Positions 22,679 to 29,297 of a DNA stretch of 64,000 bases are shown one piece after another. Source of the DNA: Stutzerimonas stutzeri (GTDB lineage: Bacteria; Pseudomonadota; Gammaproteobacteria; Pseudomonadales; Pseudomonadaceae); assembly GCF_024448695.1 (NCBI RefSeq), contig NZ_JAMOHY010000004.1, forward strand, positions 1 through 64,000, in the 5' to 3' direction. The notes beneath the pieces were generated by a model that saw only the letters and a list, made by a program, of their open reading frames with translations, was not told the origin of the DNA and did no database searches. The position numbers and the translations under genes are program-made. Each line of letters opens with the position of its first letter. Position 1 is the stretch's first letter.

Positions 22679-23248
22679 ATGTCCGTGCGCAGCAAATACC
22701 TTGTCATCTGCCTGAGCCTGCTGCTTGGAGCCGGCGCGATGCTATCCGCCTATCAGTGGTTCGAGTCGCGCTACCTGCGGACTTTCGACGGCGAACGCAC
22801 TGCGCTCTTCAATGGCGAGGCCTTGCAACTGCCCGCCGAGCTTCAGGGTCCGGGGCCCGTACGCTTCGTACATTTTTGGGACCCCGGCTGCCCGTGCAAC
22901 GTCGGCAACCAGCAGCATCTGCAGGAGCTGCTGGAGCATTTCGACAAACAACCGGTGGAATTCTTCGAAGTCCGCAAACCGGGCAGCAAGGGTCGTCTGC
23001 CACCACAACTGGCGGCGCTGCAACCCCTCGCCGGACTGACAGGCACCGAACAACTACCGGCCAGCCCCGCAGTCGGCATCTGGGACAGCAATGGTGAACT
23101 GGCCTATATCGGCCCCTACAGCGAGGGTGCGGTGTGCAGCTCGGACAACAGCTTCGTCGAACCCATCCTCGAAGCACTGCTGGCCGGGCGCAAGGTTCTC
23201 GCCACCCAATCCCTCGCGGTGGCCTGCTTTTGCGACTGGCAGCCGTAA
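22679..23248 (+). CDS. Membrane-anchored thioredoxin-like protein (DUF6436 type)
   Basis: 189 aa. Residues ~7-26 are an uncleaved signal anchor. The rest faces the periplasm and looks like a degenerate thioredoxin fold: VRFVHFWDPGCPCNVGNQQHL places CPC where thioredoxins have CxxC, so a classical disulfide exchange pair is absent. Further cysteines occur at AVCSSDN and near the C-terminus (VACFCDW). ATG 22679 has only a weak ribosome site. It ends 13 bases before the Fur-like palindrome of the TonB receptor operon, so it is probably separate from that operon. Function unknown. Confidence 0.7.
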   Translation: MSVRSKYLVICLSLLLGAGAMLSAYQWFESRYLRTFDGERTALFNGEALQLPAELQGPGPVRFVHFWDPGCPCNVGNQQHLQELLEHFDKQPVEFFEVRKPGSKGRLPPQLAALQPLAGLTGTEQLPASPAVGIWDSNGELAYIGPYSEGAVCSSDNSFVEPILEALLAGRKVLATQSLAVACFCDWQP

Positions 23249-23261
23249 CAGGGAAAACTTG

Positions 23262-23280
23262 ATTATCATCAAATGATAAT
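23262..23280. promoter_or_regulatory. Fur-like operator before the TonB-ABC-NnrS operon
   Basis: ATTATCATCAAATGATAAT is a perfect 8-bp inverted repeat around CAA. It consists of the GATAAT/ATTATC half-sites recognised by Fur, in AT-rich DNA that stands out from the surroundings, ~75 bases before a TonB receptor start. A TAGAAT at about 23290 could be the -10 element it covers. The match to the 19-base Fur consensus is partial, so another metal-responsive regulator is possible. Confidence 0.5.
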
Positions 23281-23354
23281 TGTTACTATTTAGAATAAGG
23301 TTGACTCCACGCACCCGGTCTCTCACTGCCGGAACTCATCCTGGGAGTCGTACC

Positions 23355-25388
23355 ATGATTTTCCGCCTTCATCCCCTGGCCCTGGCCTGCCTCGCCGTCA
23401 GCGCATCCACCCTCGCCGCTCCGCTGGAATTGCAGGAAACCGTCATCACTGCAAAGGGCTACCAGGCTGCAACCCAGGACATTCCGCAAGCCATCGAGGT
23501 GTTACAGGCACAGCCAACCGAAACAGCGGCAGCGGCTGGCAGCCTGTTTCGCGGCAAGCCCGGGCTCGCCGTGCACAGCGACGGCGCCTGGGGGCAGAAC
23601 CCGGTGCTGCGCGGCATGAAAAAGGAAAGCACCGTGCTGATGGTCGATGGCGTGCGCGTCAACTCGGCACAGCCACAAGGCTCGCTGGCCTCCTTCCTCG
23701 ATCTCGGCCTGCTGGAACGCGCCGAGGTGGTCAAAGGGCCGAGCTCGGTGCTCTACGGCAGCGGCGCCATGGGCGGCGTGGTCAACCTGATCACACCCGA
23801 GGCGCGCTTTACCGAGCAGGCGCAGCAGGGCGGGCGTTTCGGTCTGTCCGCCAGCAGTGTCGATGAAGGCTTCAACGGTGCGGTGCTGCTGCGCGACTCC
23901 AGCAGCGATCACGCGTTGGTGCTGGGCGCCGCCGGACGCAAGGTCAACGACTATGACAGCCCCAGTGGTACCGAGGAGCGTACCGGCTACAGCTCCGACA
24001 GCCTGCTACTCAAGTACAAGCAGCGCCTGAGCGACGACGTCAATGTCAGCCTCAATATCCAGCGCCACACCGACCGTGACGTCTGGTATCCCGGCTCGAC
24101 GCGTTCCGCCCCCTCGGCGCTGATCGGCCAAACGACCATCCATTCGCCGGAACAACGCCGTGAGCTCTATCAGCTCGGGCTGGAGAACCGTCTCGGCGAA
24201 GGCACGCTGAATACCGAGGTCTATCGCCAGGAGGTCTACCGGGAAATCCGCGCCTACTCCTCAACGCTCGACCGCAACCAGGTACGCAACGATGTCAGCT
24301 TTATCACCCACGGGCTGCGCACTTCATATCTGGTACCGATCGGCTCGCATCTGCTAACCGTTGGCGGCGAAGGCTGGAAGATGACCGGCGATCCGGAACG
24401 GCACATGCACAACAACCCACCGCTGTTCAACAACGACCAGCGCAACGACCCGTTCAAGGATGGTGAAGTCAACTCTTACGGCCTGTTCGTGCAGGATGAG
24501 TTCGAGCTGGGCCGCACCGCCATCGTCGCCGGTGCCCGCCTGGACCGCGTCAGCGGCGACGCCAAGCAGAAGGGCGCCACCCAGACCAGCGGCCTCAGCA
24601 GCAGCGACAACAGCCTGTCCTGGTCATTAGGCGCCACCCATCCGCTGACCGATACCCTCAACCTCTACGCCAACGTCGGCCAGGCTTACCGTGCCCCCGA
24701 CCTGCGCGAACGCTTCGAGGATGCGGCGCGCGGCGACGGCTACTACCACATCGGCAATCCAAAGCTCGACCCCGAGCGCTCCACCAGTTTCGAAGTCGGT
24801 CTCAAGGGCCGCGGCAGCGACTTCGATTACCGTCTGGCGGCCTTCCACACCCGCATCGACGACTATATCGCTGGCCGTGTGACCAACGAGCCGCCACAAA
24901 GCGGTCTGCCGGTCAAACGTACCGGGAACCTTGACGAGGTGGTGATCTACGGTCTCGAAGGCAGCGCCAGCAAGGCCGTTGGCGCCTTCGTGGTGGATGG
25001 CAGCTTCACCTGGCTGCGCGGCGAGAACAAACAGGACGACGAAGCGCTGTACCAGATGCCCGCCCACGAGCTGACACTGGGCATTGGCCAACCCTCCGAG
25101 CGCGGCTTCTACTGGCACGCCCAGCTGCGCGCCGTAGCCGAGCAGGACCGTGTCGCCACACGCTTCTCCAACGGCACCGAGGACGAAACGTCCGGCTTTG
25201 TCACCGCCGACGCCAGCCTCGGCTGGGGCTTCGGCAAGGTTGGCGTGCTGCAGACAGCCAATCTTGACGCCAAGCTGAGCAACCTCTTCGACAAGACGTA
25301 CCATGAGCACCTGGCCGACGGCGTCAGTGGCTACGAACTGGAAGCACCAGGCCGTGGCATCACCCTGGCATTGAGTGGGAGTTTCTAA
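23355..25388 (+). CDS. TonB-dependent outer-membrane receptor
   Basis: Outer-membrane gated porin for a scarce ligand. Signal peptide ~1-21 (ends TLAAP); a TonB-box-like ETVITA follows. The plug domain (~35-160) has NPVLRGMKKESTVLMVDGVRV and VEVVKGP-like EVVKGPSSVLYGSGAMGGVVNL. The 22-strand barrel region ends in the aromatic Phe (LSGSF). RAPDLRERFEDAARGD and IGNPKLDPERSTSFEVGLKG resemble the haem/cobalamin receptor subgroup, though the haem FRAP motif reads YRAP. GGGAG precedes ATG 23355 by seven bases; 677 aa. Followed three bases later by a substrate-binding protein gene, so its ligand is likely handed to that ABC importer. Confidence 0.85.
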   Translation: MIFRLHPLALACLAVSASTLAAPLELQETVITAKGYQAATQDIPQAIEVLQAQPTETAAAAGSLFRGKPGLAVHSDGAWGQNPVLRGMKKESTVLMVDGVRVNSAQPQGSLASFLDLGLLERAEVVKGPSSVLYGSGAMGGVVNLITPEARFTEQAQQGGRFGLSASSVDEGFNGAVLLRDSSSDHALVLGAAGRKVNDYDSPSGTEERTGYSSDSLLLKYKQRLSDDVNVSLNIQRHTDRDVWYPGSTRSAPSALIGQTTIHSPEQRRELYQLGLENRLGEGTLNTEVYRQEVYREIRAYSSTLDRNQVRNDVSFITHGLRTSYLVPIGSHLLTVGGEGWKMTGDPERHMHNNPPLFNNDQRNDPFKDGEVNSYGLFVQDEFELGRTAIVAGARLDRVSGDAKQKGATQTSGLSSSDNSLSWSLGATHPLTDTLNLYANVGQAYRAPDLRERFEDAARGDGYYHIGNPKLDPERSTSFEVGLKGRGSDFDYRLAAFHTRIDDYIAGRVTNEPPQSGLPVKRTGNLDEVVIYGLEGSASKAVGAFVVDGSFTWLRGENKQDDEALYQMPAHELTLGIGQPSERGFYWHAQLRAVAEQDRVATRFSNGTEDETSGFVTADASLGWGFGKVGVLQTANLDAKLSNLFDKTYHEHLADGVSGYELEAPGRGITLALSGSF

Positions 25389-25391
25389 ATC

Positions 25392-26387
25392 ATGCATATC
25401 GCCATCCGCCTGCTGTTGGCTGTCCTGCTGCTCGCCAGCGGGCCGGTCATGGCGGAGAAACTGCCGCGTCTGATCCTGGCCGGCCCGTCCTCATCGGTGT
25501 CCAACCCGCTGATCCACATGGTCGAGTCCGGGGCATTGAATGATCTGGCCGACAAGGTCGAGTTCGTCAGCTGGCGCGATCCGGATCAGTTGCGGCTGAT
25601 GGCGCTCAACGGCCAGGCCGACGTGCTGGCCATGCCGGTCAACGTCGCCGCCAATCTCTACAACCGGGGCGCCAAGCTGCGCCTGCTCAACGTCTCCACC
25701 TGGGGCTTGCTCTGGCTGGTGTCCCGCGATCCCGGCCTGACGACCATAGCCGACCTGCGCGGCAAGGAAATCACCATGCCGTTTCGCGGCGACATGCCGG
25801 ACATCCTCTTCGGCCTGCTGGCCGAGCGCGCGGGCCTGGATGTGCGCAAGGACCTGCGCCTGCGCTACGTCGCCACGCCCATCGACGCCATGCAGCTACT
25901 GCTGATGCGCCGCACCGACCATGCCCTGCTGGCCGAACCGGCCATTTCCATGGCGCTGCGCAAGGCCGACTCGGGACCACTGAGTCTGGTCGCCCCGGAG
26001 CTGCACCGCAGCATCGACCTGCAACAGGAATGGGGTCGGCTGCTGCAACGTGAGGCACGCATTCCCCAGGCCGGCATCGCCCTGATGGCCAGCGTGAAGG
26101 ACAACCCGGTCGTTGCTGCACGTATCGCCGCAGCTTATGCCGACTCCCTGCAATGGTGCGGCGAACAAGCCCAGGCCTGTGGAGAAATGGTGGCCCAACA
26201 CCTGACCATGCTCAGCGCCGAGGCCATTACCGACTCGCTGGCCGTGGCACAGATGGAGGCCGTCCCCGCCGAGCAGGCACAGGCAGAAGTCGAGTTCTTC
26301 TTCGACCAACTGCTGCAGAGAAACCCGGCGCTGATCGGCGGCAAACTGCCCCCGGCAGACTTCTACACCGCTCCGGCAACGCCATGA
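25392..26387 (+). CDS. Periplasmic substrate-binding protein, NitT/TauT (NMT1/THI5-like) family
   Basis: Receptor of the ABC importer in the TonB/NnrS operon. Signal peptide ~1-21 (ends VMAEK). The mature fold follows the NMT1-like pattern: LILAGPSSSVSNPLIHMVESGAL, a central ADVLAMPVNVAANLYNRGAKLRLLN, and DLRGKEITMPFRGDMPDILFGLLAERAGL. 331 aa. A pair of cysteines (WCGEQAQACGEM) lies near residues 256-263. Ligand unknown: family members bind sulfonates, nitrate, pyrimidine precursors and others, and coupling to a TonB receptor suggests a larger or metal-bound ligand here. It overlaps the permease by four bases. Confidence 0.75.
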   Translation: MHIAIRLLLAVLLLASGPVMAEKLPRLILAGPSSSVSNPLIHMVESGALNDLADKVEFVSWRDPDQLRLMALNGQADVLAMPVNVAANLYNRGAKLRLLNVSTWGLLWLVSRDPGLTTIADLRGKEITMPFRGDMPDILFGLLAERAGLDVRKDLRLRYVATPIDAMQLLLMRRTDHALLAEPAISMALRKADSGPLSLVAPELHRSIDLQQEWGRLLQREARIPQAGIALMASVKDNPVVAARIAAAYADSLQWCGEQAQACGEMVAQHLTMLSAEAITDSLAVAQMEAVPAEQAQAEVEFFFDQLLQRNPALIGGKLPPADFYTAPATP

Positions 26388-27175
26388 ACCTGCTGCACAG
26401 CTGGCTACGTGGCCTGCCGGCCTATCTCTGGAGTGGCTGGGGTGCGCTGGCCAGCCTGTTCCTGTTTCTCACCCTGTGGGAAGCCGGCGCCCTCTACTAC
26501 GGCGCGCTGGTATTGCCCTCACCGCTGGAAACCTTCGCCCGCCTGCAACAGCTGATCGCCGAAGGCAGCGCCTGGCCGGAACTGCTGACCACCGGCCGCC
26601 GCGCCCTGCTCGGCTTTGCACTTTCAGTGGTGGTTGGTAGCACGCTGGGCCTGGCTGCCGGCGTGTCGATGACCGCTTCAATGATGTCGCGGCCCCTGGT
26701 CACGGTACTCATGGGCATGCCGCCGATTGCCTGGCTGGTGCTGGCAATGCTCTGGTTTGGCGCCAGCGATGGCACCCCGGTGTTCACCGTGTTTATCGCC
26801 AGCTTCCCGCTGATCTTCGTCGGTGCCCTGCAGGGGACACGTACCCTGGACAACCAGCTCAAGGACATGGCCAGGGCCTTTCGCCTGCCGCGGCGGATGC
26901 TGTTCTTCGACGTTTACCTGCCCCACGTGGTGTCCTACCTGTTCCCAGCGTGGATCACCGCGCTGGGCATGTCCTGGAAGGTGGTGGTGATGGCCGAGCT
27001 GCTGGCAACCCAGGACGGCGTCGGCGCCGCCCTGGCAGTGTCGCGCTCACACCTGGATACCAGCGCCACCATGGCCTGGATCGTCGCTGTGGTGGGCCTG
27101 CTGCTGGCGGTGGAATATCTGCTGCTGGAGCCGATCAAGCGCGAAGTGGAACGCTGGCGCGAGGTCTCGACATGA
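26384..27175 (+). CDS. ABC importer permease, NitT/TauT (SsuC/TauC-like) family
   Basis: Inner-membrane permease with about six predicted helices and the BPD_transp_1 EAA loop near FVGALQGTRTLDNQLKDMARAFRLPRRMLFFDVYLPHVVSYLF. ATG 26384 overlaps the receptor stop (ATGA) and gives 263 aa, the family length; a longer reading from 26153 would lie inside the receptor gene. The downstream ATPase overlaps by four bases. Confidence 0.85.
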   Translation: MNLLHSWLRGLPAYLWSGWGALASLFLFLTLWEAGALYYGALVLPSPLETFARLQQLIAEGSAWPELLTTGRRALLGFALSVVVGSTLGLAAGVSMTASMMSRPLVTVLMGMPPIAWLVLAMLWFGASDGTPVFTVFIASFPLIFVGALQGTRTLDNQLKDMARAFRLPRRMLFFDVYLPHVVSYLFPAWITALGMSWKVVVMAELLATQDGVGAALAVSRSHLDTSATMAWIVAVVGLLLAVEYLLLEPIKREVERWREVST

Positions 27176-28008
27176 AGCGCCTGGAGATCATCGGCCTGGA
27201 CCACGCCTTCGGGCGCGACGAGATCCTGCAAGGCATCCGTCTCGACCTGAACGCCGGTGAAGTTGTCGCCCTGGTCGGTCCTTCCGGCTGCGGCAAGACC
27301 ACCTTGCTGCACCTGTGCGCAGGCTTGCTCGATGTGCAGGAAGGCCGCATCGACAACAGCTTCCAGAACCCCGCCTGCATGTTCCAGCAACCGCGCCTGC
27401 TACCGTGGAAAACCACCGTCGACAATATTGCCCTGGGTCTCAAGGCACGCGGCATGCGCGGCAGCGAACGCCTGCGCCAGGCCGAAGCGCTGGCCTTGCG
27501 CCTCGGTCTGGCCAGTGGCGATCTGGGCAAATTTCCGCACCAGCTGTCCGGCGGCATGCAGAGTCGGGTCTCGCTGGCCCGAGCGCTGGTGTTACAACCG
27601 GATCTGCTGCTGCTCGACGAACCTTTCGCCGCGCTGGATATCGGCCTCAAGGAAGAACTCTACGCGCTGCTCATCACCGAGCAGGCCGCGCGGGGCATGG
27701 GCGTACTGATGATTACCCACGATCTGATGGAGGCCGTGCGCCTGGCCGACCGCATCCTGGTGATGGCCGCGGAGCCGGGGCGTATCGTCAGTCATCTGGC
27801 GTTGCAACTGCCCGCGCTGCAACGCAGCGATGCCTGGATCTACCAGCACACCGCCGAGTTGCTGCAAATACCTGCCGTGCGCCAGAGCTTCGGCCTGAGC
27901 ACACGGACATCAATCGGGGCAGACGCCCCAACAGCAATACCCGGCCAATCGTCCATCCACGAGATGGCCGCTATCGCCAGCCCCTTCAAGGTGCGTTCAG
28001 GATGCTGA
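27172..28008 (+). CDS. ABC importer ATP-binding protein, NitT/TauT (SsuB/TauB-like) family
   Basis: Cytoplasmic ATPase of the importer. Walker A is GPSGCGKTT (~residue 37), Q-loop MFQQPRLLPWKTT, signature LSGGMQSRVSLA, Walker B LLLLDEPFAALD and switch His in ITHDLMEA. 278 aa, with ~40 extra C-terminal residues after the conserved core. Starts at the ATGA overlap with the permease and overlaps the NnrS start by seven bases, so the operon is tightly coupled. Confidence 0.88.
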   Translation: MKRLEIIGLDHAFGRDEILQGIRLDLNAGEVVALVGPSGCGKTTLLHLCAGLLDVQEGRIDNSFQNPACMFQQPRLLPWKTTVDNIALGLKARGMRGSERLRQAEALALRLGLASGDLGKFPHQLSGGMQSRVSLARALVLQPDLLLLDEPFAALDIGLKEELYALLITEQAARGMGVLMITHDLMEAVRLADRILVMAAEPGRIVSHLALQLPALQRSDAWIYQHTAELLQIPAVRQSFGLSTRTSIGADAPTAIPGQSSIHEMAAIASPFKVRSGC

Positions 28009-29261
28009 CTCCGTCCCTCTCCAATCGCCTCGCCGCCTGGCCACTGTTGCTGTGCAGCTTCCGTCCACTGTTTCTGGTGACGACGCTGCTGGCAATTCTC
28101 GGCATCGTGTTGTGGCTGGGCTTTCTCGGTTTCGGCCTGGCGTTGCCGACGGTGCCGGGCGGGCCGCTGGTGTGGCACGCCCATGAACTACTGTTCGGCT
28201 TCGGGCTGGCGGCGGTGGCCGGCTTCGTCCTGACCGCTGTGCCGGAATTCACCGCAACCGCCCCCTTTGGCCGGCATGTCGGGCTGGCCTTCGTGCTGCT
28301 CTGGCTATTGGCGCGCCTGAGCTTCTGGCTGTCCGGCCTGCTCGGCTCCTGGCCGGCGGCGCTGTGTAATGTCGCCTTCGCCCTGGCCCTGCTGGTGCTG
28401 CTGACACCCCGCCTGCTGGGCGATCCGCTGCGACGCCAGTGGGGCTTCTTTGGTGGTCTGAGCGCACTGGCGCTGGTGCTAATCGGCTTCCAGTTCGACG
28501 TGCTGCGCGATCTCTATCCGATGCGCTGGCTGCATGCGACAGTCGGCGTGATGATGGTGCTGATCGTTGTGGCCATGAGCCGGATCTCCATGCGCATCGT
28601 CAACGACGCCATCCAGGCCCGTCGCGATGCCGGCCACGAAGTGGATGAGGATTATCGTGCCCGCCCACCCCGACGCAATCTGGCGATCTTCTGCATCACG
28701 CTGTTCAGCCTTGGCGAATGGCTGGCACTGCCTGGCGCGCTCAATGGCTGGCTGGCGCTGGCCGCAGCGGCTGCCGTATTCAACCTGCTCAATGACTGGC
28801 ACGTCGGACGTGCCCTGCTGGAGCGCTGGTCGCTGATGCTCTATAGCGTCTATGGGCTGATGGCGCTGGGTTATGCACTGCTTGGCATCGCACAGCTTTC
28901 CGGGGATTTTGGCGCCAGCGTCGGGCGCCACCTGCTGACAGTGGGCGCGATGGGCATATCGGTACTCGCGGTGCTGTGTATTGCCGGTCGTACCCATAGC
29001 GGCTTCGCGCTGGATCAGCGTCGCTGGGTGCCATTGGCAACCACTCTGCTGGTACTGGCGGCATTGCTGAGGGCAGGCGCTGGACTACCGGGTTTACCGA
29101 CCCAGGCCATGAACCTGCTGGCGGGCCTCGGCTGGCTGATCGCCTTCGCACTCGCCTGTCGCTACCTGGTGCCGATCTGGCTGAGCCCGCGACCCGATGG
29201 CGGGCAGGGCTGTGAAGAGCCGATGAGCGAGCACAGCACAGGGTCTGGCTGTCGGACCTGA
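28002..29261 (+). CDS. NnrS family membrane protein
   Basis: Polytopic inner-membrane protein (419 aa, ~12 predicted helices) of the NnrS family. Known members bind haem (and copper) and are tied to nitric-oxide stress and denitrification. Motifs: SFRPLFLVTTLLA near the N-terminus, the HAHELLFGFGLAAVAGFVLTAVPEFTAT block with conserved histidines, MRWLHATVGVMMVLIVVAMSRISMR, and GRTHSGF near the end. ATG 28002 lies inside the ATPase 3' end; no NO-responsive regulator or denitrification gene is in the window. Placement at the end of a TonB/ABC operon suggests it uses or protects the imported compound; that is inference. Confidence 0.85.
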   Translation: MLTPSLSNRLAAWPLLLCSFRPLFLVTTLLAILGIVLWLGFLGFGLALPTVPGGPLVWHAHELLFGFGLAAVAGFVLTAVPEFTATAPFGRHVGLAFVLLWLLARLSFWLSGLLGSWPAALCNVAFALALLVLLTPRLLGDPLRRQWGFFGGLSALALVLIGFQFDVLRDLYPMRWLHATVGVMMVLIVVAMSRISMRIVNDAIQARRDAGHEVDEDYRARPPRRNLAIFCITLFSLGEWLALPGALNGWLALAAAAAVFNLLNDWHVGRALLERWSLMLYSVYGLMALGYALLGIAQLSGDFGASVGRHLLTVGAMGISVLAVLCIAGRTHSGFALDQRRWVPLATTLLVLAALLRAGAGLPGLPTQAMNLLAGLGWLIAFALACRYLVPIWLSPRPDGGQGCEEPMSEHSTGSGCRT

Positions 29262-29297
29262 AAGTAGAAGGACACAACGATGTGCCCTTCTACTTTC
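29260..29297 (+). terminator. Terminator after nnrS-like gene
   Basis: GAAAGTAGAAGG and CCTTCTACTTTC pair as a perfect 12-bp stem; the 14-base loop can extend the stem by CAC/GTG. The stem starts within the stop codon of the NnrS gene and is followed by TGTTTTCT. It separates this operon from the convergent spu operon. Confidence 0.8.

Follow-up and report, generated by a model that had tools for sequence, protein, structure and literature searches.

NnrS is a haem/copper-type membrane protein that is common among bacteria that handle nitric oxide (NO). The V. cholerae protein reportedly eases the stress that iron-NO complexes cause (PMC10256816), the nnrS gene of Paracoccus is reported to be under NtrYX control when iron is poor (PMC9409073), and NnrS appears among cuproproteins (PMC6769254). 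E. coli takes up pyrroloquinoline quinone (PQQ) via the TonB receptor PqqU, and PqqU and PqqT serve this one scarce cofactor in different organisms (PMC12124388). The copper receptor NosA of P. stutzeri acts in the service of nitrous oxide reductase (PMC1274295). Here, an operon is described from a 64,000-nucleotide stretch of Stutzerimonas stutzeri DNA (contig NZ_JAMOHY010000004.1, positions 1 to 64,000; hereafter the window). Its five genes encode a TonB-dependent outer-membrane receptor, a periplasmic substrate-binding protein (SBP), the permease and ATPase of a NitT/TauT-type ATP-binding cassette (ABC) importer, and NnrS. A literature search that took in few subscription papers found this combination of TonB receptor, NitT/TauT-type importer and NnrS nowhere described in the sources it covered.

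Conservation of the operon and of its NnrS subfamily

The five genes lie on the plus strand, span positions 23355-29261 and follow each other with gaps or overlaps of 3, -4, -4 and -7 bases, in agreement with the first-pass annotation of the window. The sequence likewise supports a transport path across outer and inner membrane to which NnrS is joined, as that annotation had proposed. Relatives were collected by scanning genomes with an eight-SBP alignment, which returned 438 loci; the analyses use the best 80 of these 438, that is, the most similar, 15 of which are near-copies from Stutzerimonas and kin. A total of 67 of the 71 relatives with sufficient flanking sequence encode all five genes in the same order, and the remaining four lack only the TonB receptor; nnrS is present in all 71. 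Judged from these genomes, the five-gene arrangement is conserved far beyond chance, and the rarity of the unit that the first-pass annotation had named as a refuting result is not observed. The five-gene counts were taken from tblastn, and neighbour counts based on a simple gene caller are lower bounds, because that caller frequently chose antisense shadows. Median identity to the proteins of the window, among the best 80 relatives, runs from 56% for NnrS up to 76% for the permease, and the closest named relative of the SBP, at 93% identity, is from Stutzerimonas stutzeri. Residue conservation was counted after sequences of unusual length were dropped, leaving 73 of 77 receptors, 81 of 81 SBPs, 78 of 80 permeases, 78 of 79 ATPases and 76 of 79 NnrS.

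The NnrS of the operon scores above the PF05940 cut-off of 28 bits (Table 1) and carries the conserved histidines of NnrS: H59, H61, H267, H310 and H332, together with C18 and C404, are 97-100% conserved in the 76 operon NnrS. H310 is common to all three NnrS types found within the genus and H332 to type 1 and the operon type, in an alignment in which many type-1 rows are N-terminally shortened. With a score near 260 bits, the operon type is encoded in 11 of the 11 genus genomes that carry the SBP and in 0 of the 11 non-carriers common to both surveys. A tree of 57 of the 110 rows separates the operon NnrS, as a single group with support 100/99, from both remaining genus types. One NnrS subfamily accompanies one importer in all 71 relatives with sufficient flanking sequence, so that the role of NnrS could be tested via the ligand of the SBP. 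Two further NnrS genes are present in the genome from which the window derives (G000:C12:80924-82054 and G000:C3:221527-222588; L001, L003/L153). The former lies approximately 4.4 kb from nosZ and the latter scores like a third subfamily.

Among more distant relatives, NnrS is found within the cluster in 12 of 15 annotated plasmid records and is not listed in the other three (Diaphorobacter, P. nitroreducens and Paraclostridium), although the plasmid gene tables are incomplete and a sixteenth record has none. In Sulfurimonas, NnrS, permease and ATPase are encoded on the strand opposite the SBP. Taken across these sequences, SBP, permease, ATPase and NnrS appear to form the core of the system and the outer-membrane part its variable component. 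In Arcobacter and in the window, this component is a receptor near haem-receptor models but under their cut-off; the receptors of four scanned Alphaproteobacteria score best, though always under cut-off, with siderophore and PqqU models; and in Sulfurimonas and Nitratiruptor a Phenol_MetA_deg protein is the outer-membrane part. The unit that the first-pass annotation had drawn from receptor to NnrS is kept, but its receptor end is variable and its core begins with the SBP.

Association with denitrification

The SBP was detected at E 1e-10 in 33 of 198 genomes of the family. A nosZ gene over cut-off was encoded by 30 of these 33 carriers and by 40 of the 165 other genomes (p 5e-13, shared ancestry being ignored in this and the other co-occurrence p values), and a nirS-like gene by 26 of the 33 as compared to 32 of the 165, at a threshold of our own (E under 1e-90). 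When only the 26 closer SBPs are considered, nosZ is present in 24 of 26 carriers versus 46 of the 172 others. By gene content, family carriers are thus mostly denitrifiers, which bears out the link to denitrification that had been suggested for the operon. In a class-wide search with an SBP profile, only 3 of 369 genomes had a match at E 1e-30, the genome of the window included, indicating that the operon is scattered class-wide.

A promoter with two adjacent putative regulatory sites

The first-pass annotation placed a 19-base Fur-like palindrome upstream of the operon. The palindrome exists, but what relatives conserve is TTGATNNNNATCAA, the FNR/ANR/DNR consensus, with a Fur-type site at +15 from it, and not the palindrome. 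The reading as a single Fur palindrome was rejected for this reason, since the palindrome is lost while the two neighbouring sites are conserved and, on the evidence of the upstream regions, the palindrome is a chance overlap of the two. The FNR-type box of the window matches exactly, and its Fur-type box is weak when set against the Fur consensus TGATAATNATTATCA (Table 1).

The upstream set comprised 80 regions, those of the window and 79 relatives; L092, for which no start was found, was dropped. An FNR-type box with at most one mismatch was present in 62 of the 80 regions as compared to 0.6 of 80 expected from shuffles, and a Fur-type 15-mer with at most three mismatches in 28 of 80 as compared to 0.6 expected, where the shuffles deal two-base blocks and are a coarser control than true dinucleotide shuffling would be. 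Perfect Fur-type boxes occur in 12 of the 80 regions, all of them from near relatives (L047-L058). The spacing of the two sites is also fixed: a Fur-type site with at most five mismatches stands at +15 in 43 of the 62 regions with an FNR-type box. When near relatives are removed (leaving L059-L123 and the window, with L076 dropped as too short), 46 of 65 regions have an FNR-type box and enough sequence, and 27 of these 46 have the Fur-type site at +15, against a background of 0.6% of positions. The Fur-type site that the first-pass annotation proposed is in this sense supported by the sequence. A conserved TTGATNNNNATCAA site, as in the ANR/DNR (FNR-type) regulon, and a conserved Fur-type site, as in the Fur regulon, both precede the operon, the window's own copy of the latter being weak.

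Searched as a composite pattern with at most three mismatches, the pair yielded 14 matches in 31 genus genomes, of which 13 lie upstream of the operon and one elsewhere, their placement being judged against operon positions from the genus surveys. The reversed pattern, used as a control, had no matches in the same 31 genomes. Exact matches to the FNR-type consensus number eight in the 3.70-Mb genome, promoter box included. Of the others, two have a nirS-like gene no more than 3 kb away, and two have nosZ at a distance of at most 15 kb. A sigma-70 scan found no promoter, a result of little weight for FNR-type promoters, and the upstream consensus across relatives contains a weak -10 region. A gene for a Crp/Fnr regulator is nearby in 5 of the 15 annotated plasmid records, and a Fur-family gene in one. 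The simplest reading of these sites is that an FNR-type regulator would activate the operon under low oxygen or NO and that Fur would repress it. If the pair works as it looks, it would form an AND gate that joins oxygen/NO with iron in bacteria that both produce and consume nitrous oxide, and would therefore bear on how iron supply shapes denitrification.

Table 1. Positions of the promoter elements, genes and terminator of the operon within the window, and the evidence for each.
Feature	Position	Strand	Evidence
FNR/ANR/DNR-type box TTGATTATCATCAA	23259-23272		exact match to TTGATNNNNATCAA
Perfect 19-base-pair palindrome ATTATCATCAAATGATAAT	23262-23280		overlaps parts of both boxes
Fur-type box TGATAATTGTTACTA, weak	23274-23288		3 mismatches to TGATAATNATTATCA
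TonB-dependent outer-membrane receptor, 677 amino acids	23355-25388	+	PF00593 179.8 bits, PF07715 70.2 bits
Periplasmic SBP, NitT/TauT/MqnA fold, 331 amino acids	25392-26387	+	PF02621 26.9 bits, structure model
ABC permease, 263 amino acids	26384-27175	+	PF00528 61 bits
ABC ATPase, 278 amino acids	27172-28008	+	PF00005 100.9 bits
NnrS, operon-linked subfamily, 419 amino acids	28002-29261	+	PF05940 260.3 bits
Hairpin terminator	29260-29297	+	-24.6 kcal/mol, z -4.4, then TGTTTTCT

The gene that precedes the operon (DUF6436, 22679-23248) is co-directional, and its stop is 10 bases 5' of the promoter elements. At the other end, the strong terminator of the first-pass annotation is confirmed: the unit ends at a hairpin with a stem of 12 pairs, a small internal loop and 4 further pairs. 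This hairpin was not in the output of a simple terminator scan.

Putative function and candidate ligands

The linkage of the genes and the promoter sites are sequence evidence, from which we infer the regulation, the ligand and the role of NnrS. Our tentative preference is that the operon encodes an importer used when oxygen is absent, NO is produced and iron is scarce, that its ligand is most likely an anionic iron chelate, and that NnrS guards the iron from NO, in keeping with the V. cholerae and Paracoccus reports cited above. Low oxygen or NO would activate the operon and iron would repress it. Driven by TonB energy, the receptor would bring in an anionic ligand that is in short supply, most likely iron on a small chelator, and the SBP would pass this ligand to the NitT/TauT-type ABC pump. 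In the least certain step, NnrS would prevent NO from trapping the iron that comes in, or would act at the inner membrane on the ligand itself. A bolder version, which we regard as unlikely, is that NnrS is more than a co-regulated guard and is a working part of import: the operon would be a dedicated route for an iron or other metal complex, present only under anoxia or NO, and NnrS would act on the metal, NO-ligated or chelated, during its passage through the inner membrane. If this were true, the NnrS family would gain a function and denitrification would have an iron economy special to it.

Several observations weigh against an iron importer under dual control. The Fur-type site of the window, with three mismatches, is at the limit of the composite search; 18 of the 80 upstream regions have no FNR-type site at one mismatch or fewer; and in G117, a genus genome that carries the operon, the composite pattern is without a match at three mismatches or fewer. 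The pair of sites is mostly missing in more distant relatives, and Nitrosomonas europaea (L094) has neither the receptor nor the FNR-type and Fur-type sites. In addition, the co-occurrence statistics share the neglect of ancestry noted above, and copper and haem genes also lie near relatives. Finally, the core is found without a matching receptor in Agrobacterium pusense and in three Pseudomonadaceae stretches, so the ligand may not always require TonB.

The importer components point to a class of transporter rather than to a substrate. The SBP matches PF02621 weakly, with a cut-off of 26 bits, and its structure model (predicted local distance difference test, pLDDT, 92) is nearest to 3hn0 (Z 31.9), then to SsuA (Z 26.7) and PqqT (Z 26.0-26.4; root-mean-square deviation 3.1-3.2 across 284-286 residues), which makes it a PqqT-type fold; its scores with NrtA and TauA are Z 25.0 and Z 22.3. 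The permease matches the SaoP, SsuC, NtrB and TauC models under their cut-offs, and the best NCBIfam model for the ATPase is the taurine ATPase (172.9 bits, cut-off 357). An SBP of this fold, an SsuC/TauC-like permease and a TauB-like ATPase together identify a NitT/TauT-type importer. No named substrate family is reached, however, since the SsuA family (19.4 of 163.5) and NtrB (82.5 of 209.05) also score under their cut-offs, and a named-family assignment to sulfonate, taurine or nitrate import was rejected on these scores. Arginines are conserved in both the receptor and the SBP, and they would suit an anionic ligand.

A small anion or an organic cofactor (PQQ-like, a quinone, or related to N-oxides) that serves anaerobic or NO metabolism could be carried instead of iron, with the apparent iron control arising from the disturbance of Fur by NO. 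The nearest folds of the SBP (3hn0, SsuA and PqqT) agree with this, as do a Gram-positive ABC relative without TonB beside hcp and hemerythrin genes, an Agrobacterium core that adjoins UbiD/UbiX/U32 genes and nap, and the alphaproteobacterial receptors that score highest, under cut-off, with siderophore and PqqU models. Such a ligand would not by itself explain the Fur-type box at fixed spacing or the iron-storage and iron-uptake neighbours of some relatives, and the receptor of the window scores low with the PqqU model (44.9, cut-off 1200). We consider a non-iron ligand of this kind to have a small but appreciable probability. 

The receptor, in turn, raises haem and copper as ligands. Its structure model (pLDDT 83) has ChuA, ZnuD and OprC as nearest solved folds, but these are all within 2 Z units and the fold search consequently picks no ligand. 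An importer of haem, or of another iron tetrapyrrole, could supply the haem-rich enzymes of denitrification, with NnrS using or guarding the haem. TonB-hemin (TIGR01785) is the best named family of the receptor (278.6 bits), the haem receptors ChuA and ShuA are among its nearest solved folds, and haem or CobN modules adjoin several relatives. However, the score is under the cut-off of 316.85, and the haem-ligand histidines of ShuA, H86 and H420, fall in a distant alignment on a serine and on R459, the latter 99% conserved in 73 receptors. Moreover, a Massilia relative (L100) keeps the operon receptor despite an adjoining receptor that exceeds both haem-receptor cut-offs, and the haem ABC importers known to us are all of the BtuCD type. 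A haem receptor by named family was rejected given the score and the unmatched haem ligands, and haem import is, in our estimation, improbable. Import of a copper chelate to supply NosZ, NirK, haem-copper oxidases or NnrS appears the least probable of the alternatives. It would account for the co-occurrence of the SBP with nosZ, the pseudoazurin or oxidase-subunit genes near some relatives, the likeness of the receptor fold to OprC (Z 34.6) and the appearance of NnrS among cuproproteins (PMC6769254). It does not sit well with the recurrent Fur-type, iron-responsive site in the promoter or with the TonB-copper (OprC/NosA) score of 126.7 against a cut-off of 472.45. At the positions aligned with the plug motif of OprC, the receptor has no Cys or Met; copper ligands were checked at the plug only, and a copper receptor by named family was rejected on the score.

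Gene neighbourhoods and remoter copies

Genes for iron or haem handling and for nitrogen oxide metabolism recur near the clusters of relatives, which we count in favour of the iron-importer reading. A CobN-like chelatase is encoded beside at least 5 of the 80 genome loci and on one plasmid. The Nitratiruptor cluster has FTR1, imelysin and ferritin as neighbours, ChaN is near the Arcobacter cloacae cluster, and haem genes are near clusters in Arcobacter and Cereibacter. Agrobacterium clusters have nor and nap nearby. In Pseudoduganella (L082) and the Massilia relative mentioned above, a TonB receptor, a CobN-like chelatase and an ExbB-type gene precede the operon, an arrangement that resembles the Hmu haem loci. 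A DUF2325 protein is encoded after nnrS in L112 and a few other relatives, and the Nitratiruptor cluster (L162) likewise has a DUF2325 gene in its vicinity.

Several copies depart further from the operon of the window. Variant core copies with 49-66% identity (L158 and L159, in G080 and G117) have no window-like receptor in the stretch examined. A remoter SBP subfamily (L029-L033 and L037; 41-44% identity) is encoded by other Pseudomonadaceae and by the P. nitroreducens plasmid, where a Crp/Fnr regulator and an orphan ccoN are nearby and NnrS is not listed. On the Paraclostridium plasmid (L168), the ABC importer has a relative whose surroundings include a Crp/Fnr regulator, cupins, hemerythrin-domain proteins and hcp; neither NnrS nor TonB is listed there. 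A 2.17-Mb Neisseria gonorrhoeae record labelled as a plasmid (L169) has relatives of the SBP, permease and ATPase at 31-40% identity and, downstream, an NnrS-like stretch that may be interrupted; the record lists no genes for the region that holds them. A Bacteroidota plasmid from Dysgonomonadaceae (L165) and a Martelella plasmid (L171), both among the 12 records with NnrS, have identical cluster layout and spacing. This likeness probably reflects contamination or very recent transfer, and L165 was therefore not counted as another phylum.

Comparison with known systems

The closest solved structure to the SBP, 3hn0 (BDI_1369 of Parabacteroides distasonis, labelled 'nitrate transport protein'), is 24% identical to it, is also found by profile search and has motifs such as AANLYN, EP.(L/S)..ALRK and GG.LPD in common with it in the profile alignment, but has no stated function. 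The PqqU/PqqT systems of PQQ uptake share the folds of both binding components, with PqqU at Z 33.2 to the receptor and PqqT close to the SBP, as given above; they differ in the low PqqU score of the window receptor, and we know of no NnrS in such systems. The view of the first-pass annotation that NitT/TauT-type proteins do not go with TonB meets at least a partial counter-example here, in the PQQ-binding protein PqqT of Methylobacterium, which has this fold, and in PqqU of E. coli. The haem receptors ShuA, ChuA and PhuR have the same TonB fold and are the nearest named family, from which the receptor of the window is set apart by its sub-threshold score and by the loss of both aligned haem-ligand histidines. 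The copper receptor OprC/NosA resembles it in fold, but the window receptor has no Cys or Met at the aligned plug positions and scores far under the TonB-copper cut-off. For the NnrS of DNR/NsrR/NnrR regulons, the likeness is in PF05940 proteins of denitrifiers, some with an FNR-type site, and the main text of the study describing them does not contain the words TonB and ABC transporter (PMC1274295). The NnrS of the operon, by comparison, forms a separate subfamily that is linked to an ABC importer and preceded by an additional Fur-type site.

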